64,000 bases of DNA from Gari tellinella (Eukaryota > Mollusca > Bivalvia > Cardiida > Psammobiidae): assembly GCA_922989275.2 (NCBI GenBank), contig OV277856.1, forward strand, positions 52,957,358 to 53,021,357, read 5' to 3'. This document shows positions 1,222-63,441 of the stretch, piece after piece. The notes beneath the pieces were generated by a model. The model saw nothing but the letters and a program-made list of their open reading frames with translations, was not told where the DNA came from and made no database searches. Position numbers and translations under genes: made by a program. How positions within the stretch are numbered: position 1 is the first letter of the stretch; every line of letters begins with the position of its first letter.

Positions 1222-1313
1222 ACGTTGATCGTCGATGACTTGGGTTTCATCTCGGGCTCTGGATCAATCATCAACCCAAACGTCATTCTTACATCTGCCC
1301 AGCATTTTGAGGG
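1222..1313 (+). CDS. Serine protease homologue, visible exon 1 (His57 region)
   Basis: The acceptor follows a pyrimidine-rich tract ending TTTCAG at 1221, and the donor is gtactt at 1314. It encodes residues 1-30 plus two bases of Gly31. TSAQH replaces the usual TAAHC, so the general-base His is a Gln and Cys58 is a His. The exon starts inside the domain, so at least one upstream exon (signal peptide, IVGG-like start) is missing. Confidence 0.85.
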
Positions 1314-4300
1314 GTACTTACTTTGCCATTACCATCTTATCAAATCCTACACTACATTTCAAAGATATTTGCGATCAGCTTAGACCTAAAACTATCATTT
1401 TTATAAAGTAAATTCCGCCCCTTTAAAAAGTGAACTACGAATTAACACTGCCTTTCATAACTCCTTCATGGTAAGTACATGTAAGGCACGTGACTGAATG
1501 ATGGCTGAATGAAAAGTAGACAGCTTTCAGACGAGGTTGTTTTGTTGGTTTAATTTTGTTTGTTTTTTAATTTTTATTCAGCCTGCTTCAATCAGATACC
1601 TGTAAAGGTGTTTGAAAACTGTTCTATGTCCATATACAGTGGATAATATGTTATTCTTTCCCAATAAACGCGTTTACGCTAAAACTATTATTTGCAGTGC
1701 AAACAGTTTGGAGCCAGATCAGACGCCGGGTAACCCGGCGTCTGATCAGGCTCCAAACTGTTTGCCACCAAGATAAACTAGAATTATCAGAATTGTCCAA
1801 AAGTTGTTCTTTTCTACGTTTTAGTGCTTTGCGTTTGCGTTTAAACGGGAAAGAATAACAGATTCTCCACTGTACAGTGGAGACGCCGTTATTCTTTCCC
1901 ATTTAAATTACGAACTGCAAACGCATTGCAATGAAATCGAGAAAATGACAGCTTTGCGATTGTGTAAATGGCTAACACTTTGAAGCTAGCTCAGACGATG
2001 GGTTACCCTGCGTATGATCTAAGTCCAAACTATTTGTAAGGTAAATAATAGCTTTAGCATAAAAAGCTAGTTGAGACAGAATAATGTTTTCTCCACTATA
2101 TCAGTGATCGGTCGAAACATGAAATATTCTTGAAGAAAAGGTTATGTCGTGAAAATGTATCACTATGACAAAAAAGGTCACGGATGCCTTGGTTTTATCC
2201 ATTGCTAGTATTCAGTTTTGCATTCTGATAACTCTTCAAATTGGTGTTTGTAAGAAAATCTATGTATAGTCCAATTGCTCTAGACAGTGCGATGAGTGAG
2301 AAAGGAAGAATTAAAATAAAGGAACGAATGTTTTTATCACGAATGAATAGTATGTTATTCATTCGTGTTTTTTATGGATTCACTGTTTGGCACTTGTCAT
2401 TAAATTCTTAAAAGAATTAACATGATATGTAAAATCTAAGTATTGACGTTTCTTAAGGTACTTTCTAAATCTTTCGAAATACCAATGGATAACGCAATGT
2501 TACACGGCATATGATGAAATGTAACAATGTATGATGAAAACATATCTAAAACATATAGTACAGTATTCCCTCCCTACAACGACCCTCCCAACAACGACTC
2601 CCTCCTTACAACGATCCTTGCCGCAGTTCCCCAATCAAGACATTAACTTTTTCATGGCTGCAATGCCGTCTGTTTAAATTTGTCCTCTGCTGTTTTTTCT
2701 CAAAGTTACATATAAGTAGAGATTTTGATAGAATAGATATAATGACGGGTGACAAACAGCTTGAATCCAGATCAGACGCCGCGTTACGCGGCGTCTGATC
2801 TGGATTCAAGCTGTTTGCAATTGTAAGTCTAGTCTTATTTTTTCCCTCTCTATAACGACTCCCTCCGAACAACACACACACTTTGTGTCTCCCAATGGGT
2901 GTCGTTGTAGAGAGGGAATGGTGAATTGAACTAAACCTTCAAACAGACGCCATATACATGTATGTTTACAAGAAGTAAAACGTCGACCGCTTTCCTATTT
3001 ACAGTCCAGGTTACAGTGTATTCGACTTGAAGCTTCACAACTGGAGAATTTATGCTGGAGAATACAACATTAGTACAACCGATCCCAATGAGAAGTTTTA
3101 TCACATCCGTCGAGTTGTGCTCCATCCCGGATACAATGTTACCAGTCTAGAGAACGACATTGCCATTGTAATCACCGTGGAACCTATCACGTAAGACTTG
3201 CATTCGTATATACACAGTAAAACTTCTTTATTACGACGTATACGAGTTCGAGGTATCGAGTTTCGATTGTACTTGTTATATAATGAGACAATGCTAACAT
3301 TGACGGCTTAGTCATGTGACTGCTTGAAGAGAGAAGACCCCCTATCGGACCTCTTTTCTGTACTGCCATCTTGAGGTGTCGTATAACCTCGGCCTTAGTG
3401 GTCTTGCCTGCCTAGTTCACAGTAAAAACTACGTTACTCTTTCTCATTAAACGTGTTTATGCTAAACCCTTTGGTTCATAGCAAACTGTTTGGAGTCGGA
3501 TCAGACGCCAGGTAACCTGCCGTTTGACCAGGCTTTAAACTGTTTGCCTCTCAGATAACAAGAGGCACATGAGCCATATTTCTCTCACCTCAGAACAGCT
3601 AACAAAATGAAGAGAAACATTTATGTCCCAGGGCGGAGTGATTTTTTTACCACAGAGACATAATTTGAACAGTCTGAATAGAGGACATAAAGATGCTGTT
3701 ATGTGCCAAAAATCAAAGCTCTGCATACTAAGGTTATAGACAAGGAGGTTGTTTTTAAGTTTTCATTGGAAAATCTATTATTAGTTCCTGTGACCTATAT
3801 TTGCAACCGACCGGAACCATTTCAACAAAATAGGTAAACGCCCTCTAGAAGTATCACCATGCAAACTCTGGCCATGATGGTTTCAGAGGATAAGATGTTT
3901 GAACAATTCGCTATATAACTCTATGTGAAAGTGTGACCCCAGGGCGGGCCAATTTTGACCCCAGGGGTAGAAGACCTGTTGGTGATGATATATGCCAAAA
4001 CATCCAAGCTCTAGCCATTGAAGTTTTTGACAAGAAGATGTTAATATATTTTCTCAATTGTTCACATTGGTTGCCATGGCAACCAGGGTCTCTGCATTGT
4101 TTTTATTATTATATATTTGAAAGTGCTTGACTCGTTAAACCTTTCTGTAAAGATTGGTTGAAATTTGGCAAGCGTAAAAGGATGAGATGTCATTTGAAGC
4201 AATTGTCAATGACGACGGACAACGCACGACGACGGACACAGGGCCATCACAATAGCTCACTTTGAACCTTTGGCTCAGGTGAGCTAAAACTTGATCGTCA

Positions 4301-7300
4301 GAATGTTCAAGAAGCTCTCATTTCTACATGTTATCGCATTGCGTTTTCGATTATTTTCGTTAAAACGGGGAGGAATAAAGGTTATTTTTTTCAAATTTAA
4401 TTGCAATTGCTGTGAAGCAAGAAGGTATATACCCAGTTTACTTAGTACAAGATAAAGAAACTGTTCAACTGGTTTTAGGAATTTTTTTTATATACTGACA
4501 CGAAAAAGAAACTGTGCACTTGTTTAGGAATTAAAATTTCCATCTTTTTTTTTAAAGAAATATAGGCAAGTGTGGTATCAAAATGCTCGTAAATATTTCT
4601 TTTACACGATGCTTTATTTTTTTTAATCAAATTCGTGTTATTATAAATGCACATTTTACGCTTGAATGAAGTAGAGGTTAAAAGTAAAAGTTAAAATCGG
4701 TATTTTTGAAAATGAAAATGGATTTAAATCGGTATGTGTAATCTCCTCATCTTAAACTGACCAATGCAATAAATCTCGAACGCATTGACCTGACGTAACG
4801 TCTTGTGACGTAAATTCGTCAACGTCATGTATCTACCCTGGCGTGATGGCTTGCTGGATCCTGATTGATCTCTAACGTTTCCAATTTGACCGTTAGGATG
4901 TCGAAAGGTCATGATGGTATTTCGGTGGCAATCAAACTGCCCAGTGACGTCAGAGACGCTGACGTCGGATTAAAGGTGCTAAAGTGTCTGAATTCGTTCA
5001 TTTTCATGAAGCCGTGCCAGCTTGTTAACGAGTTTAATTCAAATGTACTATGATTTTATTATTGCATAATCAGTAAAGATATCGGTCAGTGAACATTTGT
5101 ACTTGTAAACCTGTTGCACATGCAGCACGTGCATAATATTGCATAATAGCCGTTGGTACGTTTGCATGACATCCAGGTGCTTTACTATCGGGTAAATTAG
5201 TGCAGTGTGTGAAGAATTATTTTATCATTCACTATGCTACGTTTTATCATTCTAAACTTAGTAACGAAAAAGTTACACTCAATATAAAAGTGAACAGTTT
5301 CTTTTTCGTGTCAGTATATATTAACAAGTACAAACCATAGACAGATTTGGTATTAAAACGCACAAAAATGTTTCGGCTACACATTGATTTTTTTAAATTG
5401 TGATTTAAAAACTTGAAGAGAATAGCTGTGCATGTGAAAGATGATGGTGTGGAAAGTAAAAGTCGCAGTGACACCCGGGATGGGGCCATTTTTGACTCAA
5501 TGTTAAAGTTATGAAAGTTTTTGGTAGCGGTCTACAATGCAAGGCTACGCGTCAAATATCAACGCCATATGCCTCATGGTTTGGCACAGACAGATTTGTC
5601 GAAGGCTAAACGAGATTTACAAAACATTACAAGTTTTACTTTTCGCATCCTCGTCATTCACAGAAAATTATCAAAAACAATTTAACACACGCCATAATTT
5701 AGCCCATACATTTTTGCTCATTTTGATACCACTTTTGTCTATGGTTTGTACTTATAAATATAACAAAAACTTTTAAAACCAAATTTACAGTTTCTTTATC
5801 GTGTTAGTATGTGTTCTAATTACTAGAGATATACATTTAAACCTCTGAGTTACAACCTCTAAACTGTGTTTAATTATTACGTGTTTAAGACAGGTGACTG
5901 CTTAAAGCAAGGTGACAGTATAACAGAAAGTCCCTTGCTCGTTTTTAGTGTAATTTGAAGCGAGAAAAATGATCAAACATGGTTCTTGGTTAAGACGGGG
6001 GGATTCTTTATCCTCGGTTTTTCTCGCTTGTAAGGGGTTACAATAAATAGCTGTACGGCTAACCTTGTCTTGCACTGTGTCCCTCTGTGCTATTGGGATA
6101 AAACCAGCGCAAGTGAGGTAACTCTTACGGAAATACCCTAAATATTCAGAAAGCCCACCAGCTACGTTTACAGAGTGAAATGAAATAGAGAATTGTACAG
6201 TATATGTATGTGCTTTTATCAATGCGATGATCCGCTGTTTAAACAGCTATTTATTTTGTTGTTATTGATTGTCTTACATTGTCGAGCATACGCCTAACGT
6301 CACGTTATTAAATGACGTCAATGACGTCGGTTGTTGTTATGGCTTGAAAATATAACGTATTTAAAGGAAGAAAGTGTCGTTTTGATGCTCGTTTCCGACT
6401 GGGAACAGACCAACCTCGGGTAAAAATGCCCCGTCATTACCTAAAACCCGTGATTGATTCTATGATACTGTATTATTCTCGTTTCAAAATTACAGATGGA
6501 ACGACCACACACGTCCAGTTTGTATCCCGGACAGCTCACATGTGTACCAGGTGGGAAACCAGTGCTGGCTCCCAGGATGGGGCAGTACATCCTGTAAGTA
6601 AACATAACACATCTGAACCGTGCTGGCTCCCAGGGTGGGGAAGTACATATTGTAAGTAAACATAACACAGCTGAGCCGTGCTGGCTCCCAGGATGGGGAA
6701 GTACATCCTGTAAGTAAACATAACACATCTGAGTCGTGCTGGCTCCCGGGATTGGGAAGTACATCATGTAAGTAAACATAACACATCTGAGCCGTGCTGG
6801 CTCCCAGGATGGGGAAGTACACCCTGTATAAAAAGTACATCCTGTAAGTAAACATAACACATCTGAGCCGTGCTGGCTCCCAGGATGTAGAAGTACATAC
6901 TGTAAGTAAACATAACACATCTAAGCCGAGCTGGCTCCAAGGATGGGGAAGTACATCCTGTAAGTAAACATAACACATCTGAGCCGTGCTGGTTCCCTGG
7001 ATGGGGAAGTACACCCTGTAAGTAAACATAACACATCTGAGCCGTGCTGGCTCCCAGGGATTGGGAAGTACATCATGTAAGTAAACATAACACATCTGAG
7101 CCGTGCTGCCTCCCGTGATAGAGAAGTACTACCTGTAAGTAAACATTACACATCTGAGCCGTGCTGGCGCCAGGGTGTGGAAGTACATACTGTAAGTAAA
7201 CATAACACATCTAAGCCGAGCTGGCTCCAAGGATGGGGAAGTACATCCTGTAAGTAAACATAACACATCTGAGCCGTGCTGGTTCCCTGGATGGGGAAGT

Positions 7301-10300
7301 ACACCCTGTAAGTAAACATAACACATCTGAGCCGTGCTGGCTCCCAGGAATTGGGAAGTACATACTGTAAGTAAACATAACACATCTGAGCCGTGCTGGC
7401 TCCCGGGATGGAGAAGTACCACCTGTAAGTAAACATAACACATCTGAGCCGTACTAGCTCCCAGGGATTTGGAAGTACATCATGTAAGTAAACATAACAC
7501 ATCTGAGCCGTGCTGGTTCACGGGATGGGGAAGTACACCCTGTACGTAAACGTAATCATTTCCATGTTGAAATCCATTTCCATGTTGAAATTTTGGAAAT
7601 AAAATATGTTTAAACTGTAAAAACGTAAACGCAACACATCTGAGCCGTGCTGGCTCCCAGGATGGAGAAGTACTACCTGTCAGTAAACATAATACATCTG
7701 AGCCGTGCTGGCTCCCAGGATGGGGAAGTACATTATGTAAGTAAACATAACACATCTGAGCCGTGCTTGCTCCCTTGATGGGGAAGTACACCCTGTAAGT
7801 AAACATGACACATCTGAGCCGTGCTGGCTCAAGCGATTGGGAAGTACATCCTGTTAGTAAATATAACACATCTAAGCCGTGCTGGCTTCCGAGATTGGGA
7901 AGTACATACTGTAAGTAAACATAACACATCTGAGCCGTGCTGGCTCCCTGGATGGGGAAGTACAACCTGTAAGTAAATATAACACATCTGAACCGTTTGC
8001 ATAGCAAAGAGTGTAGACACAGGCCAGCATGGGTTTACACTGTTTGACACACACAGGCATATACAGAATTTGTGTAACCCAACACGTCCACAGTTGTACA
8101 CTGTTGTTTCATGGCGTGGCTTATTTTTAAGTACTATTGTTGAATCTAACTCAGTCAAGGCCATTAATTCACCTGCTTTTAACTATTGTAGTTTGCTTTT
8201 AATTCTCAAATTTGAAATTAAGGTTAACTGACTACTTATACCACAATGGTTGTCAAATAGTTTAAATCCTGATCAGATGCTGATAAAGTTCTAACCCGTT
8301 TGCAAATACTCGTACTCGGGTTAAGGCAGTGCAGAGGTTAACACAGCAGGTTGATATATAAGGATGAAAGAGATGCAGAAACAGGGCTGTCATTTCTCCG
8401 GATTTTTCCGAAATCTTCGGATTTTTATTCCAACGGATGGTAGCTTAAAGCAGGCTGAAAATAAAACAGAATGCGCATTAAGGCGCATTCTGCTTTACTT
8501 TCAACATGTTTTAAGCATCACGTATCTTTAAAACTAGACACAGACTAGGGGTAAAAGGTACACTTTGGAAGATCGCGCTTGGAAAATAGAAAGTTTTGAA
8601 ATCTTAGGATTTTTTATCAATATATGGCAGCCCTGGATTATTCTTTATTAATAATGCAAATCGACCGTCACTCAAAAAATCAAATTTACAATGTATTAAG
8701 CACCAATTAACATTTTAATGGTCAATCCCAATTTCCAACTCAGTATTGTCCCTTTTTTACCATTTTGGATTGTACCTTACCATATACCGGTATTACGAAA
8801 TGACAAAATAAACTCCTGCAGGAGCCCTCTAGTCAGGATATGCACTGTTTGCATAGGACAAGTATACTATTCACATGTTCGCTGTTTGTTCTGTGCCGCT
8901 AGGTTCGAATGTGTTATTTTAAACAAGGGCCATATCTAATCATACAATACGCCGGAAGTTGCTCAGAAACAATGCTGCATCTAATTTTAGCAACCGGAAA
9001 TGAGGAGGTATTGAATCAACTGATGTATCCCATCCTAGCTGACAGCATTTGCGCTAACCATTGGACTGACTTCTTGCCTTATACCGAGGTCTGTGCCGGG
9101 TACGAGAATCAGAAGAAGGACTTCTGTGGAGTACGTATTTCCGTCTGGACTAAACACGCCTGTTCTGTGATTTAACCCTTTGCCTTCCGATGAAAACTTG
9201 AGCGAACGGTTGTGATCCAGATCAGACGCAGAGTAACGCAGCGTCGGATCTTGATCAAATCTCGCTTTGCTGGTTTATTCGATTTTTATTCATTACACAT
9301 AGTGTAGAAATCGTCATTCTTTCCGTTTAAACAGAACTAAATGTACTTACGCATTACAATGGAATGGAAAATATTATAATAAAACGTTTGTTGAAAGCAT
9401 GATAATTTATTAAACTCTGAGAAACAAACGGTTTGGAGTGTGATCTGGTCTCAAATTATCTACAATAAACACAATTTTTTTTATCAAATACACGTTTATT
9501 GGGAGAGATGAACATGTTCGCCACTGTGCCTCTAAAAGAGTTTTTACGTTTTACTTCCATACTTGTTCAAAATGTTATTCTTAACCTATTTAAGTCATTT
9601 TTAACCCTTTTAATGCCATTATGTCAACAATTTTAAACAATTGTCGTCTGTTTTCATTTCTCATATTCACCCTGTAAAGTTTTTATGTAATCGTATCAAA
9701 TATATGCAGGCCATTTCTCAATGAACCTACAAATCCAAACTGGCTCCAGCCAGTTAGAAAGAGGACGGAGTCTCCGCCGGACCGATACCGACCTAGCGGC
9801 CAGCTAATGGTTGCTATGTCGTGTAATTAGGCTATTAGATATTTAAGTTGCATTGTTTATTTTTAATGTCTTATAAGTGTTCGTTAAGCACACTGCGACA
9901 GTTTACTGGGTAAAAGCTTGACTTTGTAAACAACTCCGAAACATGTATTTTGGAATATTTACATTCAACCTGTAAAGTCCTTATGTAATCCTATTAAAAA
10001 ATATGCAGTCATCTGCCGATGAACCTACACTTCGAATCTGGATTTAACCAGTTCGGATTTCCCCCGTGCTATCCGTGGACTTCTTCAAATAGACTACATC
10101 GGGCACTTAACACTAAGCTCCCATTGGTCGACGGTAATATGACACTAGCGGAGTGATACAGACCCATAGGTCGTTGCCATCGCGTTGCTATGTGTGTAAA
10201 TGGGTTAAGAAAACAACCGCGACCTGTAATTTTAGAATGTGTTTTGGCAATAGATATTCAAGTTGCACTGTTATTTGTTTCCCCTGTAAGTAATTTCCAT

Positions 10301-12891
10301 TCACAGAGAGAAAGTTTACTGGAAAAAATCCTGAATTTTTAATACAGTTACAGTACATGTAGTTGGGACTACTTTCTCACCATATTTAGAAACTGGAAAA
10401 GCTATTACATCGACATTACATCTATCAAACCTCTTTGACCGGTATATGATAGATTCTAATACAGAAAAACAAATCTGGCCAATAAACACATTAAATTGAC
10501 AATACAGAAAATATAAATATAAATATAAGGAATAAACAACATCTCTTTGCCGTTCATGACGGTATGACTACATTAGCTTCGGGGGGTAAATTTATCGAAA
10601 ACGCCCTTCGGGCGTTTACGGAATTTACCCCCTGCGAAGCTAATGTAGTCATACCGTCATGAACGTCAAAAATATGTTGTTTATTCCTATACTACTTTTC
10701 ACACCGCATATTATAGAGATCGAATTGCTGTTACATCCAGAATTACATCTATCTAACCTATTTGGCCGGTATATTATATATTTATATACATGAAAACAAA
10801 TCTGGTAAAATACACATTAAATGGACAAGACAGAAAATAAAAATATAAATATAAGTAATAAACAACATCTTTTTGCCGTTCACGCGGTATGAACATATTA
10901 GCTTCGCAGGGTAAGTTTATCGTAAACGCCCTTCGGGCGTTTACGAAACCTTCCCCCTGCGAAGCTAATGTGTTCATACCGTAGATGTCGTTTATTCCTA
11001 TAATGACATTAAATTTAAATATTGAGCTACGTCTGGCGTCAAACTACTTACAAATAACTATGGTATTCGGTGTAAGGCAGTGAATGGGTTAATGTTGAAT
11101 TGATTTGATTGACTATAGGATGACATTGGCAGTCCTCTGGGATGTAAAGATCAGAGTGGAGCCTGGTATATTCAAGGTATGTAGATAATGGAATATGGAA
11201 TGACGGTATGTCCCCCCAAGAAACACGTTCAGATGCCAAGTGACTTGGTGTCTAATCAAGCTACAAACTGTTTACCTATCAGATTTAGATAAACAGTCAG
11301 TTACTCGGCGTATTATCAGGATCCATATTGTTCGCAAAGGTATAAATACCAACTGCATGTAGCAGTTATCGTGCATAACGCGACCTGGAAAGGTTTTGCA
11401 AACAGTAAGGGTCAAGATTAGACACCGAGTAACGCAGCGTCTAATCTCGATCCAAACTGTTTGGTACCCACATTCAACTTTCATCAGTATATATGTTAGA
11501 GTTAATCTGTGTAATCAGTCATTTCACGAAATGACTAAAACTTTCAGTCATTACGTGGAATTACTGTTTCACTTAGTCATTTCACGAAATGCCTGAAATT
11601 TTCAGTTATTTCCTAAAATGACTAAACGTGACATGCCACTTCTACACAAGTTGGCTAGAAACCTTTAACAGGATTCAAGCAATGTGTGAAATGACTTTTA
11701 TTTAATTAATTCAACTGAAGTTGTTCATCCATGTCTTTCAAAATACATAATATTGTTTAAAACTTAATATCTAACAATTATCCAGAAACATTGCACACAT
11801 TTTTTAAAGATTTAAGAGACTTGATTTGTATTACATTTATTATGCATGTATTGTTTCAATAGTGTAGTTTGTTATTATTAAGATACACAGATCATTACGA
11901 TTGAATAAAAAGAGCTAAAGTTAATTTAGTCATTTCGTGAAATGACTGAATGTGTTTTTTATTCATTTCACGAAATGACTGAAAATTTTAGGCATTTCAT
12001 GAATGACTAAGTGAAACAATGACTGAATTTTTAGTCATTTCATGAAATGACTGATTACACAGATTGATTGTACATAAATAGCTTAGAAATTGATTTTGAG
12101 ATTTTTCGCGAACGATACATTCGAGGACATTTTGGTACGTACATGTAGATATATTTATTTCAATTAATATCAAATGTACAATCTAAAAAATACTCGTACA
12201 TAATAAACAATAAGCTACAATATGCACGTATGATGTAATACAGCCATGTCAATCAACGCAATATGCCAAGGATGACACAAAAAGAGTAAGAAATATGTAG
12301 CCGGGTTGAGTTGATGATTAAATGGTGAGAGATTTGTGTAAGCGGCCCGGTGGCTCAGTTGGTAGAGCACTCGTCCTGTAAGCAAGGGGCCCCGGACTCG
12401 AGTCCCGGTCTGGCTGCATATTTTTCTCACCATCATGTTACATTTAGCACCCAACGTAATTAACCCGTCGAGTGTACAATAACCTGTGGAGTGTTCTGTA
12501 AGTAAGAAATCGGGACGAATTCTTGTGTAGAGGGGTGTGTGTAGCCGGGTTGAGTTTATGATTAAATGGTGAGAGATTTGTGTAAGCAGTCCAGTGGCTC
12601 AGTTGGTAGAGCACTCGTCCTGTAAGCAAGGGGTCCCGGTCTGGCTGCATATTTTTCTCACCATATAACAAATAGTCAAATTTCCACTGTGGTTCTTGAA
12701 TAACAATTCAGCATGATATGGGTTTGACGCATTATAATAACCAGGATCCAACTGTATTCATTGTAGGCATAGCGTCCTCTGGTGGCGACTGTAAGACAGC
12801 ATCAGAGCCCGATGTGTTCGAGGACGTCAGCAAGTACTCTGGTTGGATCAAAACGACCATGGAGCAGGCCGGTTACCCCTACCAATACTAA
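1222..12891 (+). CDS. Trypsin-family (S1) serine protease homologue, catalytically dead; six exons, 5' end missing
   Basis: The exons are 1222-1313, 3005-3190, 6496-6593, 8991-9130, 11119-11176 and 12767-12891. All junctions are GT-AG and the phases match, giving 699 nt: 232 residues plus TAA. S1 landmarks appear in order: GSGSIINPNVILTSAQ (start of the domain, residues 12-27), HPGYN and ENDIAIV (catalytic Asp at residue 82), PVCIP, CWLPGWG, EVCAGY, DFCGDDIGSPLGC (residues 169-181), WYIQGIASSGGDC and YSGWIK. At the His57 site the motif reads TSAQ instead of TAAH; at the Ser195 site GDSGGP reads DDIGSP (Ile175). The Asp189-equivalent (Asp169) is kept. Cys58 is replaced by His and Cys42 also appears lost, so the Cys42-Cys58 disulfide should be absent. 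It is therefore probably a secreted binding or regulatory homologue, by analogy with other serine protease homologues. Signal peptide, activation site and promoter were not found. Confidence 0.9.
1635..1874. mobile_element. TA-type MITE (TACAGTGG ends) with hairpin core A
   Basis: It starts TACAGTGGA and ends TCCACTGTA, followed by ATTCTTTCCC/GGGAAAGAAT in the terminal repeats. The core at 1687-1763 is a near-perfect palindrome with apex CCGGGTAACCCGG. Confidence 0.9.
1873..2100. mobile_element. Second, diverged TA-type MITE sharing the TA with the first
   Basis: It starts tacagtggagacgccgttat and ends ttctccactata; the core A palindrome at 1982-2037 is degenerate. The two elements abut at a single TA. 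Confidence 0.7.
2101..2558. other. Intron sequence without recognised feature
   Basis: A/T-rich intron of the protease homologue; a short inverted pair around 2336-2366 (acgaatgaat/attcattcgt) is the only structure seen. Confidence 0.4.
2559..2921. mobile_element. TA-type MITE with CCCTCCCTACAACG ends and core A
   Basis: It starts TACAGTATTCCCTCCC and ends near gtagagagggaat. The hairpin at 2753-2820 is nearly perfect: aacagcttgaatccagatca with its inverse and apex CCGCGTTACGCGG. Similar copies are at 17804, 42490 and 51814. Confidence 0.85.
3005..3190 (+). CDS. Serine protease homologue, visible exon 2 (Asp102 region)
   Basis: The acceptor is tttacag and the donor gtaagact. The first base completes Gly31 (GG|T). 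It encodes residues 32-92, including a YAGEYN strand, HPGYN and NDIAIV, where the catalytic-triad Asp is conserved as Asp82. NIS and NVT are two potential N-glycosylation sites. It ends in phase 2. Confidence 0.9.
3418..3557. mobile_element. Truncated TA-type MITE with core A
   Basis: It retains ttactctttctcattaaacg and a degenerate core A palindrome (3489-3547), and is cut on the right by a pearl-like element. Confidence 0.65.
3558..4288. mobile_element. Pearl-like element
   Basis: It begins acaagaggcacatgagccat near ctctcacct and ends with GACGACGGAC-type tracts, atcacaatagctcac and ggctcaggtgagctaaa. Degenerate ~300-bp core repeats carry the phrase gaccccaggg. Confidence 0.75.
4289..6495. 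other. Intron with diverged inverted repeats and MITE fragments
   Basis: A segment near 4480-4630 recurs inverted near 5270-5400 and 5700-5810 (agtttctttttcgtgtcagt). A fragment of a core B-like hairpin is at 5888-5930. No exon was found. Confidence 0.45.
6496..6593 (+). CDS. Serine protease homologue, visible exon 3 (CWLPGWG), seed of a minisatellite
   Basis: The acceptor is attacag at 6495 and the donor gtaagt at 6594. It encodes Thr93 (split) to Ser125, with PVCIP and the family motif CWLPGWG. The last ~32 nt and the donor are repeated about 22 more times in the following intron. Reading past the first donor reaches an in-frame TAA two codons after the junction, so only use of this first donor gives a full-length product. 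Confidence 0.9.
6562..7996 (+). repeat. 58-bp minisatellite made of exon 3' end plus 5' splice site
   Basis: About 22 units of ~58 bp follow the true exon end. Each unit is gtaagtaaacataacacatc, then about 6 bp, then a copy of the exon end (gtgctggctcccaggatggg) to the next gtaagt. Most units keep GTAAGT. The array is interrupted at about 7548-7630 by unrelated A/T-rich sequence. A five-unit block near 6846-7137 is repeated near 7137-7427, so there is higher-order periodicity. The long antisense reading frames across it are by-products of the periodicity. Confidence 0.95.
8000..8381. other. Intron sequence after the minisatellite
   Basis: No gene is seen; a core A fragment (aatcctgatcagatgctga) is near 8265-8283. 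Confidence 0.4.
8382..8635. mobile_element. CAGGGCTGCCAT-type MITE with core B
   Basis: The ends are cagggctgtcatttctccg and atggcagccctg. The core B hairpin is at 8449-8516. Part of a family with at least eight copies here, several with 6-bp target duplications. Confidence 0.88.
8707..8935. mobile_element. Diverged TTAA-type MITE (GGACAATTCC type)
   Basis: It shares ctggactag-like and gcactgtttgcataggacaa segments with the intact copies at 32871, 51541 and 54676; the hairpin is half lost. It ends about 50 nt before exon 4. Confidence 0.65.
8991..9130 (+). CDS. Serine protease homologue, visible exon 4
   Basis: The acceptor is attttag at 8990 and the donor gtacgt at 9131. CA completes Ser126, then residues 127-172 follow: LNQLMYPILADSIC, EVCAGYENQ and DFCG. 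Asp169 is at the Asp189 position that gives trypsin-like pocket charge. It ends in phase 0. Confidence 0.88.
9210..9270. repeat. Degenerate hairpin core A
   Basis: gatccagatcagacgcagag then an imperfect inverse, within a remnant of a TA-type MITE. Confidence 0.55.
9660..10330 (+). repeat. Diverged direct duplication, unit about 300-350 bp
   Basis: The segments from about 9660 and about 9960 share caccctgtaaag/caacctgtaaag, ttatgtaatc, atatgcag, gatgaacctaca and agtttactgg in the same order. Confidence 0.65.
10380..11010 (+). repeat. Direct duplication (~325 bp), each half with a long hairpin
   Basis: Both halves run from acatctat/cctctttgaccggtat to gtttattcctat. Each ends with a long palindrome: 10553-10667 and about 10868-10985, arms gaagctaatgt/acattagcttc and apex aacgcccttcgggcgttt. 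Confidence 0.8.
11119..11176 (+). CDS. Serine protease homologue, visible exon 5 (Ser195 site lost)
   Basis: The 58-nt exon has acceptor actatag and donor gtatgt. It encodes DDIGSPLGCKDQSGAWYIQ plus one base of Gly192. In active S1 proteases this stretch is GDSGGPL; here Ile175 takes the place of the nucleophilic Ser, while the Asp194 equivalent (Asp174) and Pro remain. The reading frame is intact, which argues for a maintained homologue and not a decayed gene. Confidence 0.88.
11395..11463. repeat. Solitary hairpin core A
   Basis: ttgcaaacagtaagggtcaa opposite tcgatccaaactgtttgg, apex gagtaacgc. No TA-type ends were recognised around it. Confidence 0.65.
11495..12073. mobile_element. Long-TIR foldback element built from TCATTTCACGAAATGAC
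   Basis: The left arm (11495-11640) and right arm (11925-12073) are inverted copies. Each contains several copies of the palindromic word tcatttcacgaaatgac. The outermost bases are a-gt-aatctgtgtaatcag. Related ends are at 29274 and 32261-32529. Confidence 0.85.
12150..12297. mobile_element. Interspersed repeat fragment, possible retroposon end
   Basis: It matches 36842-37012 in order: tttatttca, atgtacaat, ataaacaataagc, tacagccatgtca and atatgccaaggat. Confidence 0.65.
12298..12430 (+). mobile_element. tRNA-derived SINE-like unit 1
   Basis: The tRNA-like body at about 12344-12418 has an A box (tggctcagttggtagagc) and B box (ggactcgagtcc). The acceptor stem does not pair well, so it is not called a functional tRNA. 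It is flanked by ggtgagagat and tttttctcaccat, an inverted pair. Confidence 0.7.
12541..12667 (+). mobile_element. tRNA-derived SINE-like unit 2 (B box deleted)
   Basis: It is a direct copy of unit 1 starting gtagccgggttgag, 243 bp downstream. It lacks about 13 bp including the B box, so it could not be transcribed by RNA polymerase III in the normal way. Confidence 0.7.
12767..12891 (+). CDS. Serine protease homologue, last exon
   Basis: The acceptor is ttgtag at 12766. It encodes the end of Gly192, then residues 193-232 (IASSGGDC, VFEDVSKYSGWIKTTMEQ) and TAA at 12889-12891. The usual SWG at 214-216 is SSG and the Gly226 position is Asp, so the substrate pocket is also altered. Confidence 0.9.
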
Positions 12892-13432: not shown

Positions 13433-13710
13433 AGCAAACAATGTAGACCCTGATCAGAGGGTTCCTATAGGAACCCTCTGATCTGGTTCTATACTGTTTG
13501 CAAATGCAATGAGTTTATTTAAAACAGGTCCATCTTGTTGAAACAATTAACGTCTGTAACTTCAAATGGCCAATTCCAGCCTTTCCAACAAAGTCTAGTC
13601 CATTCTTGACTGTTTAGAGCATATATGTGGTTCTCTCGAGTAGACTATATTAACATATACATGTATTAGATGTAAACCCAACTCGAGAGAACCACCTATG
13701 GTTTAGAGTA
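13433..13710. mobile_element. TTAA-type MITE remnant with a nested foldback
   Basis: The hairpin at 13433-13505 (gatcagagggttcc and inverse) belongs to the GGACAATTCC family. A second foldback, gtggttctctcgagt... actcgagagaaccac (13629-13697), is inserted in it between two copies of tttagag. Confidence 0.75.
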
Positions 13711-29722: not shown

Positions 29723-30680
29723 AACAAGAGCCGCATGCGGCCCTAAAACGCTCACCTGGTACCCATGGTTACGGTCATGGTAATGAAACAGTAATGGTAA
29801 AGGTTTCACTATAAGCCATCATCGGTAATTTCACCCCCACCTACTGGCGGCCAATTTTGAGCTAGGAAGATTATTTGAAGAAAACTTGCAAAGGGTCACC
29901 CATGAATCATTATTTGTGTAAAAATATTCTTAAATCAGACCAATAGTTTCAGAGAAAAAGATTTTCTATACAGAAATATAAGGAAAACTTGCCCCACCCA
30001 CTGGCGGCCATGATTTTAAAGAGAACAAAATGATTTTAAGAAATCTGGTAGAGAGTCATAAATGGATAATTTGTGTAAATTTATTTTCGATTTGGACCAG
30101 TAGTTTCACACAAGAAGATATTTAAAGTTTTTACTATACAGTAACATAAGGAAAATGTGCCCGACCCACTGGCGGCCATGTTTTTTTAGATATCAAAATT
30201 ATTTTAAGTAATCTGGTAGAGGGTCACCCATTAATCATTTGTGTGAAATTACTTTCAAATCGGACCAGCGGTTTCAGACAAGAAGATTTTTAAAGTTTTC
30301 ACTATATAGCCATATAAGGAAAATCTGCCCCACCCACTAGCGGCCATGTTTTTTAAGATAGGTAAATTATTTTAAGAAATCTGATAGAGGGTCACCAATG
30401 GCACGTTTGGGTAAAATTATTTTCAATTCGGACCAGTAGTTTTTGACAAGAAGATTTTTAAAGTTTTTTCAATTGGTTGCCATGGCAACCACAATTTCAA
30501 TTGGATGACCTATATTTGAAGAAATCTGAGAGAGTACCCTACAAGGAACAATCCTATAAAGTTTTGAAGAAATTGGCCCAGTGATTTCCAAGAAGAAGAT
30601 CTTTTAACAAAAAGTTTGACGACGGACGGACACAGGGCGATCACAATAGCTCACCTTGGCACTTCGTGCCAGGTGAGCTA
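29723..30680. mobile_element. Pearl-like element, ~165-bp core repeats
   Basis: It starts acaagagccgcatgcggccc and cgctcacctgg, ends gacggacggacacagggcga, then atagctcacc...caggtgagcta. The phrase cccacccactggcggcca recurs near 29842, 30000, 30162 and 30335. Confidence 0.88.
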
Positions 30681-30782: not shown

Positions 30783-32221
30783 AAAACAAGAGTTGTCAGA
30801 GAGACAACAAAGCTCGCCATCGGCACATTTAGAAACTTAAAAACACACTCAAGGTCACCGAGTTCAACCTTTTTGCCTGCATGGAAAGGTCTTGTCCATA
30901 TACACATGAAAATCAAATACATGTATGAAGTTACACCTCAGGGGACATAGGAAATATAAGCATTTTTTCGAAACCTAAACACAGATTTCGAAACCTTAAC
31001 CCTGGATCTAAGTTCAAGGTCAAGGTCACAGGGGTCCAAATTTTTCTGTGCATGGAAAGGTCTTGTCCATATACACATACACACACATACCAACTATGAA
31101 AGCAACCCTCAAGGGACATAGAAGTTATAGGCATTTTTCGAAACCTAAACACAGATTTCGAAACCTAAACGTGGCCCTAAGTTCAAGGTCAAGGTCACAG
31201 GGGTCCAAATTTTTCTGTGCATGGAAAGTCTTGTTCATATACACACACATACCAACTATGAAAGCAATACCTCAAGGGACATAGAAGTTATAGGCATTTT
31301 TCGAAACCTAAACACAGATTTCGAAACCTAAACGCAGGCCTTAAGTTCAAGATCAAGGTCACAGGGGTCCAAATTTTTCTGTGCATGGAAAGGTCTTGTC
31401 CATATACACACACATACCAACTATGAAAGCAATACCTCAAGGGACATAGAAGTTATAGGCCTTTTTCGAAACCTTAACACAGATTTCGAAACCTAAACGC
31501 TGTCCCTTAGTTCAAGGTCAAGGTCACAGGGGTACAAATTTTTCTGTGCATGGAAAGGTCTTGTCCATATACACACACATACCAACTATGAAAGCAATAC
31601 CTCAAGGGACATAGAAGTTATAGGCATTTTTCGAAACCTAAACACAGATTTCGAAACCTAAACGCGGGCCCTAAGTTCAAGGTCAAGGTCACAGGGGTGC
31701 AAATTTTTCTGTGCATGGAAAGGTCTTGTCCATATACACACACATACCAACTATGAAAGCAATACCTCAAGGGACATAGAAGTTATAGGCATTTTTCGAA
31801 ACCTAAACACAGATTACGAAACCTAAACGCGGGCCCTTAGTTCAAGGTCAAGGTCACAGGGGTCCCAATTTTTCTGTGCATGGAAAGGTCTTGTCCATAT
31901 ACACACACATACCAACTATGAAAGCAATACCTCAAGGGACATAGAAGTTATAGGCATTTTTCGAAACCTAAACACAGATTTCGAAACCTAAACGCGGGCC
32001 CTAAGTTCAAGGTCAAGGTCACAGGGGTCCAACTTTTTCTGTGCATGGAAAGGTCTTGTCCATATACACAAACATACCAACTATGAAATCAATACCTCAA
32101 GGGACATAAAAGTTATAGACATTTTCTTAAAATTGTTTACGCCGTTCACGACGACAACGATGACGACTACACCGGGGGTATTGCAATAGCTCGTCATGTA
32201 CTTCATACAGGCGAGCTAAAA
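30783..32221. mobile_element. Pearl-like element with seven 165-bp core repeats
   Basis: It starts aacaagagttgtcagagaga and agctcgcc, ends aatagctcgtcatgtacttc and aggcgagctaaa. The phrase caaggtcacaggggt recurs near 31021, 31190, 31354, 31519, 31684, 31849 and 32014. Confidence 0.92.
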
Positions 32222-36500: not shown

Positions 36501-39500
36501 CAGGCTGAAAGTAAAGCAGAATGCGCCTTAAGGCGCATTCTGCTTTACTTTAAGCCTGCTTTAAATGGTCAACTGTCTTCAATACTAGAAACTGGCTATG
36601 AGGTAATGGGTAAAATGCAAACGCATTGCAAAACAATGAAGAAAATGAATTTTTTTTGGCAATTCTGAATGTTGCTGTCAACCTGGACAGCAAACAGTTT
36701 AGAGTCTGATCAGACGTCAGGTCACCTGACATCTGATCTAGCTCCAAACTGTTTGCATTGGCAATAATAGATTTAGTCTAAATGCGTTAAGTGGGAAAGA
36801 ATAACGTGTTCCGCATCTGTAACTGAATGTTTTCACTTCACAACAGATAGATAGATAGATTTATTTCAACATAAAATGTACAATATCATGGCAATCTGTT
36901 ATTTAAAACATACACAGTAAACAATAAGCAATAATATGTATGCATGAATACAGCCATGTCACTCAACATTATATGCCAAGGATAACACACAAAAAAAAGT
37001 AAGAAATACTCTTATTTCCATTGTGGTCCTTAACCAATTACCCCATAGCCTGATTTTAGTTTTGAAGATAGATTACCACTTAAAGCAGGCTAAAAGAAAA
37101 GCAGAATGTGCCTTAAGGCACATTCTGCTTTACTTCCAGCCTGCTTTAAGCTACCATGTGCTAGAATATAGAAACTATTTCTTAAAATACATACTCATAA
37201 CTGAGAAAATTGAAACTATTTTCTTCAGTTGAGGAAAAAATAAAAGGCGTATTTATGGGGTAATGGGTTAAAAGACTGCAGTCAAACTTGTGTTAACCCA
37301 TTACCCCATAGATACACATTTTCCACTGAAGAAAATATTTCCACATTATACAACCATGAATATGTATCATAAGAAATGATTATGTTCTATATCCTAGCAG
37401 ATGGTTGCTTAAAGCAGACTGAAAGTAAAGCAGAATGCGCCCTAAGGCACATTCTGCATTACTTTCAACCTGCCTCAAGTGATCCCCTATCTTCAAAACT
37501 AGAAACAGCCTATGGGGCAATGCGTTAAGAGATCTTTATTTAGAGAAGCATTGATACTACGCTATGATCTTACGCCGCTTTAAAAGTATTTCAGTCATAT
37601 CATGACGTCTAGCTAAATACAGCTGGAGGAAGAACCCAGATGCCCTTCATACATTGTATTAGGCAAATCTGTAACTGTGAAGAACCACCGACCGACCTTC
37701 TGCTATAACCCATTACCCTATAGCCTATTTCCAGTTTTGAAAACAGGTGACCAATTAAAGCAGGTTGAAAGTAAAGCAGAATGTGCCTTATGGCACATTC
37801 TGCTTTACTTTCAGCCTGCTTCAAGCTACTTTCTACTAGGATATAGTATATATTTCTCATGGTACATATTCATGTTTGTATAAAATGGATCTATTTTCTT
37901 CAATGGTGGAATAAATTATAGACTTAACCAGAGCCATCGCAAGATGGCACGCTCGACTATTCCAGGTTTTTTTCGTTATTGGAAATTTGATAAGGGTAAA
38001 TAAATATATTGGATAAGCATGTTTGATGGTAGTAAACTGAAACCAGAGCTACCTGCCTTGGTTGGGTGAAACAGTAGAATTTTTTATTAATAAAATTTCT
38101 AATTTAATATATAAGGTAATTTCAAAGTCCATCAAGGGCCATAACTCACACTAAATGCAAACTAGAAATACCTGCCTTGATTGACTGTACTAGTGGCAAG
38201 GTTGTGCTGAAGTATAATGCGATGCAGGCAGCAGTTGCAGAGATATAAGCTTATTTGTATGTTGCACAAAAAACCTTAACCAAAATATCTAAGTCCATCA
38301 AGGGCCATAACTCAGAATAAATGCAAACTAGAAATACCTGCCTTGATTGACTGCACTAGTGGCAAGGTTGTTGTGAAGTATAATGCGATACAAGCAGCAG
38401 TTGCAGAGATATAAGCTTATTTGTAGGTTGCACAAAAAACCTTAACCAAAATATCTAAGTCCATCAAGGGCCACTACTCACACTAAATGCAAACTTGAAT
38501 TACCTGCCTTTATTGACTGCACTAGTGGCAAGGTTGTGGTGAAGTTATTATCCCATACAAGCAGCAGTTGCAGAGATATAAGCTTATTTCTAGGTTGCAC
38601 AAAAAAACTTAACCAAAATTTCAAAGTCAATCAAGGGCCATAACTCAGAATAAATGCAAACTAGAGTTACCTGCATTGAATGACTGCACTATAGGCAATG
38701 TTGTGGTGAAGTTGTAATCCCATACAAGCAGCAGTTGCAGAGATATAAGCTTATTTCTAGGTTGCACAAAAAACCTTAACCAAAATATCTAAGTCCATCA
38801 AGGGCCATAACTCACACTAAATGCAAACTAGAAATACCTGCCTTGATTGACTGCACTAATGGCAAGGTTGTGGTGAAGTTATAATGCGACACAAGCAGCA
38901 GTTGCAGAGATATAAGCTTATTTGTAGGTTGCACAAAAAACCTTAACCAAAATATCTAAGTCCATCAAGGGCCACTACTCACACTAAAAGCAAACTTGAG
39001 TTACCTGCCTTTATTGACTGCACTAGTGGCAAGGTTGTGGTGAAGTTATTATCCCATACAAGCAGCAGTTGCAGAGATATAAGCTTATTTCTAGGTTGCA
39101 CAAAAAAACTTAACCAAAATTTCAAAGTCAATCAAGGGCCATAACTCAGAATAAATGCAAACTAGAGTTACCTGCCTTGATTGACTGCACTAATGGCAAG
39201 GTTGTGGTGAAGTTATAATGCGATACAAGCAGCAGCTGCAGAGATATAAGCTTATTTCTAGGTTGCACACAAACTTTAACCAAAATTTCAAAGTCCATCA
39301 AGGGCCATAACTCACACTAAATGCAAACTTGAGTTACCTGCCTTGATTGACTGCACTAGTGGCAAGGTTTTGGTGAAGTTATAATCCCATACAAGCAGCA
39401 GTTGCAGAGATATAAGCTTATTTGTAGGTTGCACAAAAACCTTAACCAAAATATCTAAGTCCATCAAGGGCCATAACTCACACAAAATCCAAACCAGAGT

Positions 39501-42500
39501 TACCAGCCATGATTTGCTACAGTAGTGGGGAGACTGTGGTGAAGTTATAATGCAATACAAGTATTGGTTGTAGAAATACAAGCTTATTTGTAGGTTGCAC
39601 AAAAAACCTTAACCAGTGCAACGCCGACACCGAATTGTAGAAATACAAGCTTATTTGTAGGTTGCACAAAAAACCTTAAACAGTGCACCACCGACGCCGA
39701 CGGTGACACTGACGCCGACACCAGGGTGACTGTAATAGTGTTTATGGGGAAATGGGTTAATGCAGATCAAAATTATATAACAAAACTCATATAGGAGCTT
39801 TTTACTATACTTTTTTCCTACATTAACCTTTCCCCTATAGACTGTTTCAAAAGTAGTTGCTCAAAGCAGGTCAAAAGTAAAGCCTAAGTGGTAAAGCTAG
39901 AGACGCCCAAAAGTGTTTCTCTGGGTAAAAGGGTTTAGCTGCAAACTGCATTTCTTCTCAATGAGTATTCTGCTTTACTTTCAGCCTGCTTTGATCTATA
40001 ATCTGCTAGGATATAGGAAATATTTCGTAAGGTGCATATTCATGACTATATAAAGTGGAACCGTTTTCTTCAGAGGAGATCTAAATTACAGGCCTAAAGG
40101 GTGTATTTATTGGGTTATGGATTACATCATAGATTTCTCTATTGACTGAGGAATGTAACATTTAGATCAATTCTCAAGAGACATATATAGTGAATCTAAC
40201 ACCACCGTGAGTGTCAGATAAGAATATCCCACCCGAGTTTTGAAGATATTTTTTTAACACGAGGCTTTGCCGAGTCAACCCTAAAAACGTGTTTAACTTG
40301 CTATACAGTGGCGAGTTGTATTTTAAGGCGCTAATGCATGCATGACGACGTCATGACGACGTCATGACGACGTCAAAACAACGACAATAACAACCAATCA
40401 TAAGATAGTTCCATAAGTTCGGCTTGTCTGTCCGGACAGATAAGGTTATCTCACACCCCCTAGATTTAGGGATACCTCTGTCCAAGAGGTGAGAAAATAT
40501 GAGAAATCCCTGCTGTAATGACCACACAAAACTAGACTGACTTTCAGAGCTTTACAGAAATCAAGATTTTTACTTGACTTTTAACTTGTTATAACCTGTC
40601 ACATAATAATTATCTTTAATCCTTTACTCAATAGCCTGTTTTTAGTTGTGAAGGTGACCACTTAAAGCAGGTTGAAAATAAAGCAGAATGTGCCTGAAGA
40701 CAGGTGAACACTTAAAGAAGGTTGAAAGTAAAGCAGAATGTGCCTTAAATCAGGTGATCACTTAAAGCAGGTGACCACTTAAAACAGGGATATAGAAAAT
40801 CAGAATGTGCCTTAAGGCACAAACGCTTTATTTTCAGCCTGCTTTAAGCTACGATCTAGTAGGATATTACAAGTACTTTTTATGATGCATATTTATGATT
40901 ACATGAAGTGGAACTATTCTATTCAATGGAGAAATAAATGTAAGCCCTAAAACTGTGTATCTATGGAGTAAAAGGGTTAACACTGTGAATGGGTCTTCGA
41001 CACGTAACTATAGAAGTGGGGTTTACAGTTTGTACAGCAGGCAGGCTTACCTGTGCCACCAAATGTTCCGTTCATGATCTGGTTATACTTGTTCAAGGTT
41101 TCCTTGTACCTTACAAATGTCGTGTTGACAAAGATGTACATGTAGCAGGAGGGAGTGTCTGACACTGTGTGAATGTTGTGGAATGCTGCTTCAGGTACCT
41201 GTACATATATAAGGCAATATATAACAGGGCTGCCATTTCTCCGGATTTTTTCTAAATCTTCGGATTTTTTTCTAGTACATGGTAGCTTAAAGCAGGCTGA
41301 AAGTAAACCCCTTAAGGCACATTCTGCTTTACTTTCAACCTGCTTTAAGCAGCCACATGTCATCAAAACCAGAAACAGGCGATGGGGAAAAGGTACGATT
41401 CGTAAAATCACACTTGAAAAATGCAAATTTGGAAATCTTAGGATTTTTTATGTCAACTTATGGCAGCCCTGATATGAGGCAGGTTTCTTATATCTCAAGG
41501 GAGGTAATTGCAGCAATGTAACAGTCACAAGTTAATTACTGCCCTAAGTGCTCTTTGGTGCCACTGTTTGATGATGTTTAACAGCCATTTAACATCAATA
41601 TCATATTGAGGTGCCCACATTTGTAAGTACTGCATTCATAATCAAGCCAAGAGTAAACTGAGTTTATTACACCCTTTTTCTTTACCCTTTCTACAGCAAA
41701 TTTTCCACAAGAAATTTTCCATTTTGAACCAGCAAGGCACAGACCCTAGAGGTCAAGATCAAGGTCAATGTCACCAAACTGCAGTGCATCTTGGTCTACT
41801 CATTAAAGTGCATCAGCATAGTGTGAAGTTTCGTGACCGTAGATGCAGTTGTTTGCTCAGTACAGTCAGACCTAAATGCAAAACCTTAAAATTGATCCTA
41901 GAGTTCAAGGTCAAGGTCAACAAACTGCAGTGCATCTTGGTCTACTCATTGAGACACATCAGCATATATAGTTTCGTGACCGTAGGTGCATTCTTTTGCT
42001 CAGAACAGACTTTAGTGCAAAACCTTAATGTTGGCCCTAGAGGTCAAGGTCAAGGCCACCAAACTGTGGTGCATCTTTGTCTACTCATTTAGGTGCATCA
42101 GCATATGAATTTCGTGACCCTAGTTGCAGCTGTTTGCTCAGAACAGACTTTTAAGTAAAACTTAACGGTGACCGTAGAGGTCAAGGTCAAGGCCACAAAA
42201 CTGTGATGCATTGTTGTCTAATCATTGAGGCGCATCAGCATATGAAGTTTGGTGGCTGTAGTTGCAGTTGTTTGCTCAGTTTATGATATCCAAGTTCTGG
42301 ACGCTGATGCGGGGGCTATAGCATAAGACCCCTAAATTCGTGGAGGTGAGCTTAAAATGATCAGTTTATGTTAATTTAGTGGCTGTTTCTAGTAAAAACA
42401 TGTATTTCAGGTGGGGGAGTGCCTTATTCTGACAAGAGACCTCCTTAAGGTAAGAGGCTCTATGATCAGGGTCTATGCTGTTTTCAAAATACAGGGCTCC

Positions 42501-62244: not shown

Positions 62245-63441
62245 TACAAGAGGGCCATGGCCTACAAGTCGCTCACCTGAGAACATTGTACCTTAGCTGA
62301 CTGGGCAAGACAATATTGTGATATATATAGCTATAAAAAGATTTTTAAAGGTTTTCCTATATAAGTCTATATAAAACTGATAAGCCCCGGGGCGGGGCCA
62401 AATTTGATCAAGGGGTCATAATTTGAACAATCTTGGTAGAGGACCATAAGGCAAAGCTACATGTCAAATATAAATGATCTGGGCCTTACAGTTTCAGAGA
62501 AGAAGAATTTTAAAGATATTCCTATGAAAAACTAATAAGCCCGAGGGCGGGGCCATTTTTGGCTCGAGGGTCATAATTTGACCAATCTTGGTAGAGGACC
62601 ATAAGCCAAAGCTATGTGTCAAATATTAAAGATCTGGGCCTTACAGTTTCAGAGAAGAATATTTTTAAAGGTTTTCCTATATAAGTCTATGTAAAACTGA
62701 TAAGCCCCGGGGCAGGGCCAATTTTGACCCAGGGGTCATAATTAGAACAATCTTGGTAGAGGACTATAACGCAAAGCTATGTGTCAAATATTAAAGATCT
62801 GGGCCTTACAGTTTCAGAGAAGAATATTTTTAAAGGTTTTCCTATATAAGTCTATGTAAAACTGATAAGCCCCGGGGCGGGGCCAAATTTGACCCAGGGG
62901 TCATAATTTGAACACTTTTGGTAGAGGACCACAATGCAAAGCTTCATGTCAAATATAAATGATCTAGGCTAAACAGTTTCAGAGAAGAAGGTTTTCAAAG
63001 GTTTTCCTAAGAAAAACTGATAAGCCCCAGGGCGGGGCCATTTTTGGCCCAAGGGTCAAAATTTGAACAATCTTGATAGAAGATCATTAGGTTATGATAC
63101 ATACCAAATATCAAAGGTCTGGGCCGTTTGGTTCCTGAGAAGAAGGTTTTTAAAGATTTTCTTATGCATTAAAAGTTGTCTATACGCTCATGTTAGAAAA
63201 TCTAGTCCCACAGCAAGGGGAATAACTCTAGCCAATAACTTTGAACAAGATTTCGTTCCCCCTTGTCACTGAAGGTTTTGATAATTTTAGTTTGGTTGAA
63301 ATTGGGTCAGTGGTTTCAGAGGAGATGTTGTTTGAAAATTTGAATGGACGACGTACGACGTACTACGGACGACATACGACGTACGACGGACGGAATGGGA
63401 TCACAATAGCTCACCCTGAGCCTAAGGCTCAGGTGAGCTAA
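62245..63441. mobile_element. Pearl-like element beside a GGCX acceptor, ~160-bp core repeats
   Basis: It starts acaagagggccatggcctac and cgctcacctgag; the phrase ccccggggcggggcca recurs near 62387, 62540, 62704, 62872 and 63027; it ends acggac-type tracts, cacaatagctcaccctgagc and ggctcaggtgagctaaa. Confidence 0.93.

Follow-up and report, generated by a model that had tools for sequence, protein, structure and literature searches.

A coding exon of a bivalve trypsin-fold gene is followed, in the 64,000-nucleotide stretch of Gari tellinella DNA analyzed here (the window), by a minisatellite built from copies of its own 3' end and 5' splice site. A 58-bp unit, combining the final 32 nt of exon 6496-6593 with the 26 nt of intron that follow them, occurs 23 times at positions 6562-7994, as the real exon end plus 22 copies, according to Tandem Repeats Finder and a unit-by-unit split. 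The first-pass annotation had described such a unit and about 22 extra tandem copies, and both points hold. Since the unit spans an exon-intron boundary and many units keep the splice signal, the array has the anatomy of the "mirages" of amphioxus. Our data show this anatomy, its position at a conserved coding exon, paralogues that are free of arrays, donors with no specific conservation relative to the adjoining intron half, and recurrence. The array is probably by-product DNA that a repeat-rich bivalve genome tolerates, rather than a maintained splicing device, and of a kind that recurs at other exon edges.

The host gene occupies positions 1222-12891 of the plus strand, with six visible exons in consistent phase and a 5' end that lies beyond the window (Table 1). 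The joined exons match the Pfam Trypsin family (PF00089, 4.2e-39). Protein relatives of the joined product include one at 82% identity and a Mercenaria protein at 79%, and the closest named relatives are all from bivalves (Mercenaria, Mya, Ruditapes, Mactra, Dreissena). The best solved-structure match is plasma kallikrein, relative to which the catalytic His57 is replaced by Gln and Ser195 by Ile. An alignment of 37 rows, including the query, has Gln at position 57 in 31 rows and Ser at position 195 in only two, which points to a serine-protease homologue family that is inactive. Asp102 is retained in 36 rows. Judged by its sequence, the host gene encodes a bivalve serine-protease homologue of the trypsin fold that lacks both the catalytic His and the catalytic Ser. 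The family (P0001-P0036 and the query) is largely bivalve. Spacing from the GWG motif to the next exon is the same in 28 of the 36 homologues (P0001-P0028), one residue shorter in two and longer in six.

Table 1. Features of the host gene and its array (window positions), and exons bordered by donor arrays elsewhere in the genome.
Feature	Position	Strand	Remarks
First visible coding exon (ILTSAQHF; lost catalytic His site)	1222..1313	+	splice signals and tblastn
Second visible exon (NDIAIV; Asp102 kept)	3005..3190	+	
Third visible exon, phase 1 end at CWLPGWGSTS	6496..6593	+	junction conserved in homologues
Unit 0 of the array	6562..6619	+	genuine exon end, donor at 6594, intron start
First donor GTAAGT	6594..6599	+	sole donor with uninterrupted reading frame
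22 additional tandem copies of the 58-bp unit	6620..7994	+	exon-like 32 nt, intron-like 26 nt
Fourth visible exon (STGNEEVLNQ...)	8991..9130	+	
Fifth visible exon (DDIGSPL replacing GDSGGPL)	11119..11176	+	
Last exon, ending ...GYPYQY stop	12767..12891	+	
L048, MetAP1 exon, 6 donors			best PDB match methionine aminopeptidase, 1.1e-7
L063, Rab32/38 exon			best PDB match Rab32, 2.6e-5; TRF unit with only ~6 nt of exon
L072, SLC5 exon, 23 units			best PDB match SLC5-type transporter, 1.1e-6
L075, SLC7 exon			best PDB match SLC7-type transporter, 7.8e-10
L077, AFG2-type AAA ATPase exon			best PDB match AFG2-type ATPase, 1.1e-21

The gene and its surroundings carry other elements. Short, near-perfect fold-back inserts, apparently of one family, were seen by eye at about 1711-1765, 2758-2815, 9205-9260, 11405-11465 and 13450-13500, in several introns of the host gene and downstream of it. 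A tRNA-like sequence at 12344-12416 scores above the Rfam cut-off, and ARAGORN reports no tRNA there. An apparent second, shortened copy lies by eye at about 12590-12660, just before the last exon. Further along the window, four arrays have periods of 165-168 bp and different-looking consensus sequences (29957-30468, 30878-32125, 38118-39615 and 62522-63165).

The units of the array have a mean pairwise identity of 88.5%, and unit 0 is 83-97% identical overall to the others. GTAAGT is present in 20 of the 23 units, and the exceptions all lie toward the 3' end of the array (GTACGT at 7542, GTCAGT at 7679, GTTAGT at 7853). Most copies thus keep a good donor, as the first-pass annotation stated; its further statement that they keep an open exon-end reading fails for several units, with stops inside that reading in units 9, 15 and 19 and frameshifts in units 8, 10, 13 and 15. 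Column 21 is C in unit 0 alone and A in the other 22 units, a change from GGC to GGA that is silent in the exon. Insertions of 18 nt and 79 nt are found in units 4 and 16, respectively. Units 11-13 repeat units 6-8 (6 and 11, and 7 and 12, are identical; 8 and 13 are 95% identical), which indicates that the array grew by multi-unit steps. The motif AACC is found at both edges of the duplicated stretch. A genome search with a 279-base array query, which skips very common words, returned six matches, all from this array, and the rest of the window holds only matches of 11-13 bases.

These features suggest how the array may have formed. About 58 bp across the 3' edge of the exon would have been duplicated in tandem, perhaps at the AACC shared by both edges, placing a second donor in the intron. 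Unequal exchange or slippage would then have enlarged the array, often by duplicating several units at once. Errors are common at tandem arrays, and the structure could in principle have been created by the assembly. However, the units differ from one another, the array is just 1.4 kb long, and the assembly, whose contig C1 holds the window, is chromosome-scale (1.6 Gb in 80 contigs) and has comparable arrays at other exons. An assembly artefact is therefore extremely improbable.

Read-through past the first donor (6594) gives C-K-stop. The earlier claim that this donor alone leads to a full product is thereby confirmed, the in-frame TAA lying two codons beyond it. Any later donor would yield only a truncated protein because the intronic part of unit 0, with its TAA, would enter the message. 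Use of the first donor gives an exon of 98 nt and use of the next ones gives exons of 156, 214, 272 nt and more. Calculated U1 duplex energies do not set the first donor apart from the others in the array. Under exon definition, short exons are preferred, and the first donor would thus be favored. The copies lie in the intron behind a genuine donor, so gene function is preserved as long as the spliceosome uses the first one. We infer that it does so, producing the 98-nt exon, and that the host gene tolerates the array; with any donor further downstream, the exon would be longer by 58 nt or more, opening with a stop in frame.

The same arrangement could be read as a selected splicing regulator, in which later donors compete for U1, give rise to premature-stop products and let copy number tune expression. 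The stop behind the first donor would be included whenever a later donor is used, and read-through meets a stop within 1-18 codons in the host array and in five others (those of the MetAP1, Rab32/38, SLC5, SLC7 and AFG2-type exons). The intact GTAAGT hexamers also fit a regulator: they exceed the 14.5 expected from all remaining positions of the unit (P 0.012), and donors are thus kept better than the remainder of the unit as a whole. This difference arises from the exonic half, whose variability is about three times that of the intronic half. Compared with the rest of the intronic half, from which 19.1 intact hexamers are expected, the donors are not exceptional (P for 20 or more, 0.44), and their columns carry 2.2% mismatches vs 3.0% in the other 20 intronic columns (p 0.45). 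Donor-specific selection accordingly finds no support, since the donors are no better kept than the adjoining intron half.

The variability of the two halves was compared directly. Mismatches amount to 10.1% in the exonic half and 2.8% in the intronic half (column permutation p 0.001). With the shared history of the units counted, the gap is modest (parsimony steps, p 0.018; variable columns, Fisher p 0.11). Base composition does not account for all of it: exonic columns have more parsimony steps than intronic ones both among G/C columns (1.47 vs 0.90) and among A/T columns (0.92 vs 0.44). This extra exonic variation counts against the reading of the array as a tolerated by-product, as plain neutrality does not predict it, and the better keeping of donors than of all other unit positions counts against that reading as well. 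The array at the SLC5 exon adds to the former objection, its exonic part being again the most variable (2.0 mismatches per column, vs 1.3 in the donor and 0.7 in the remaining intron part), although the best-kept piece there is not the donor. Coding selection on the copies was also considered and rejected. Mismatches number 23, 21 and 30 at the three codon positions (11, 10 and 11 columns), a third-position bias that is not strong, and several copies contain stops or frameshifts.

In four paralogues of the host gene (three at C1:120.0 Mb and one at C1:20.2 Mb), the matching exon ends at the same point and in the same phase, with a single donor. Their exon/donor junctions read CCC/GTGAGT or ATA/GTAAGT, and Tandem Repeats Finder detected no array within 300 bases of the corresponding donor in any of the four. 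Four other fetched pieces (L040, L042, L043, L044) are without the corresponding exon. Among 30 trypsin loci kept from 72 matches, which represent exons of fewer than 30 genes, two have an array within 60 bases of the match end: the host gene with its 58-bp array, and L007 with a 15-bp, two-copy repeat. Taken with donors that are not specifically conserved, the array-free paralogues leave unsupported the splicing buffer or U1 decoy function proposed in the first-pass annotation. These two results, and the fact that 8 of the 23 donors in the SLC5 array are not GTAAGT, argue against a selected regulator, which we regard as improbable. Length polymorphism, which the same annotation had also raised, is plausible by likeness to known mirages.

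We performed a genome scan for three AGGTAAGT words spaced 20-50 bases apart. It gave 252 matches, of which about 100 were listed, and at least 20 arrays on C1-C7 are found among those listed. The host array is missing from this set because exon 6496-6593 ends in CT. DNA was examined for 13 of the 20 arrays (L048, L051, L060, L061, L063, L072, L074, L075 and L076-L080). The first donor closes a reading frame that has a PDB relative in five of the 13 (Table 1). Pfam matches fell below cut-off for two of these exons, MetAP1 (E 0.043) and SLC5 (3.7e-4). Pfam returned nothing for the Rab exon, nor for the other frame of L072 or three peptides from L051 and L061. A homologous exon was not found in six of the 13 arrays, by search for L051 and L061 and by eye for L060, L074, L078 and L079; a possible short exon at L051 matches only a designed protein in the PDB (E 0.21). 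For L076 and L080, the fetched piece stops short of the 5' edge of the array or leaves that edge unclear. As judged from these predicted exons, the scan shows donor-bearing boundary arrays in further, unrelated genes of the same genome, four or five at the least.

Donor words are only partly enriched in arrays: the excess holds for AGGTAAGT and hardly for AGGTGAGT. Among the matches listed on C1-C7 (to 74.07 Mb), there are 20 array starts for AGGTAAGT and 7 for AGGTGAGT, vs 2 and 8 for the control words TGAATGGA and GATGAGTA. On C1-C11 (to 78.60 Mb), the matches listed include 19 array starts for AGGTGAGT vs 5 and 13 for the same respective controls. Raw matches number 252 for AGGTAAGT vs 94 for the word reversed, and 251 vs 48 for AGGTGAGT. 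Array density was sampled as merged intervals with periods of 25-100 and at least four copies. Five such intervals occur in 142,907 bases. The eight other pieces (78,907 bases) contribute none; all five come from the window, two of them being the host array, and the sample therefore leans upward. Given tens of thousands of such arrays placed randomly in a genome with some hundreds of thousands of introns, both assumed numbers, chance would put hundreds of them across an exon edge, and no special mechanism would thus be needed for the recurrence. In some donor arrays (C4:40065172, C4:104351323, C3:104277138), the units read gt...ag throughout, like tandem mini-introns; the search pattern itself includes the AG that precedes the donor.

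Mirages were described in amphioxus as minisatellite-like duplications of exon-intron boundaries in Adh3 and in the globins BflGb6 and BflGb9 (PMC3087553). A second report adds a TnC mirage and similar repeats in PGBD5 (PMC3902484). Units there measure 10-72 bp in Adh3 and about 150-160 bp in the globins, and RT-PCR is reported to suggest that splicing is undisturbed (PMC3087553, PMC3902484). The Gari array resembles these cases in its tandem boundary copies, its splice signals in many units and its range of unit length. It differs in phylum and in size, with 23 units vs 6 and 3 in the BflGb6 haplotypes; moreover, splicing and length instability were observed in amphioxus, whereas the Gari array is known from the sequence of one assembly. 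Genes in human segmental duplications offer the nearest parallel of another kind. That study lists 27 intron modifications by boundary tandem repeats, which are likewise minisatellites spanning a boundary and differing between close paralogues (PMC2812944). Unlike the Gari array, the gene-modifying repeats average 30-bp units in four copies, and the boundary ones are reported there as creating novel introns with transcript support (PMC2812944). Earthworm metallothionein genes also have a minisatellite array in an intron, but it is not described as splice-donor copies in the available text (PMC12783039). Similarly, intron 3 of an abalone TSSK1-like gene contains a length-variable 27-bp minisatellite in a mollusc, but the available text does not describe it as crossing an exon edge (PMC6905558). 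Under the name "mirage", our literature search found only the amphioxus cases.

The first amphioxus report also contains a model in which such arrays are steps to a new intron or exon (PMC3087553), a copy being later recruited as an exon, cf. the amphioxus globins. The donors present in 20 of the 23 Gari units, with AG dinucleotides upstream of them, would suit such a route. However, the 18-nt piece from CCCAG to the donor would by eye carry an in-frame TGA, and the conserved protein around the junction gives no sign of intron gain. We thus regard this route as very improbable for the present array.

The evidence is for a structure of a known kind that is met here in a new lineage, the bivalves, and recurs within one genome. 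The presence of mirages in several unrelated genes of one bivalve suggests that they may arise in any genome rich in minisatellites. With as many as 23 near-identical donors following a single exon, such arrays provide a natural test of how the spliceosome chooses a donor, and boundary arrays also test the proposal that new introns are seeded by boundary duplications. A bolder proposal, which we put forward as speculative and on balance unlikely, is that bivalve genomes hold a large class of donor-bearing minisatellites at the coding exon edges of conserved genes, whose copy number differs from one individual to the next and has a measurable effect on how often the first donor is chosen. If this were true, each such locus would serve as a naturally occurring dose-response experiment on 5' splice-site choice, and new splice sites would keep arising from it.
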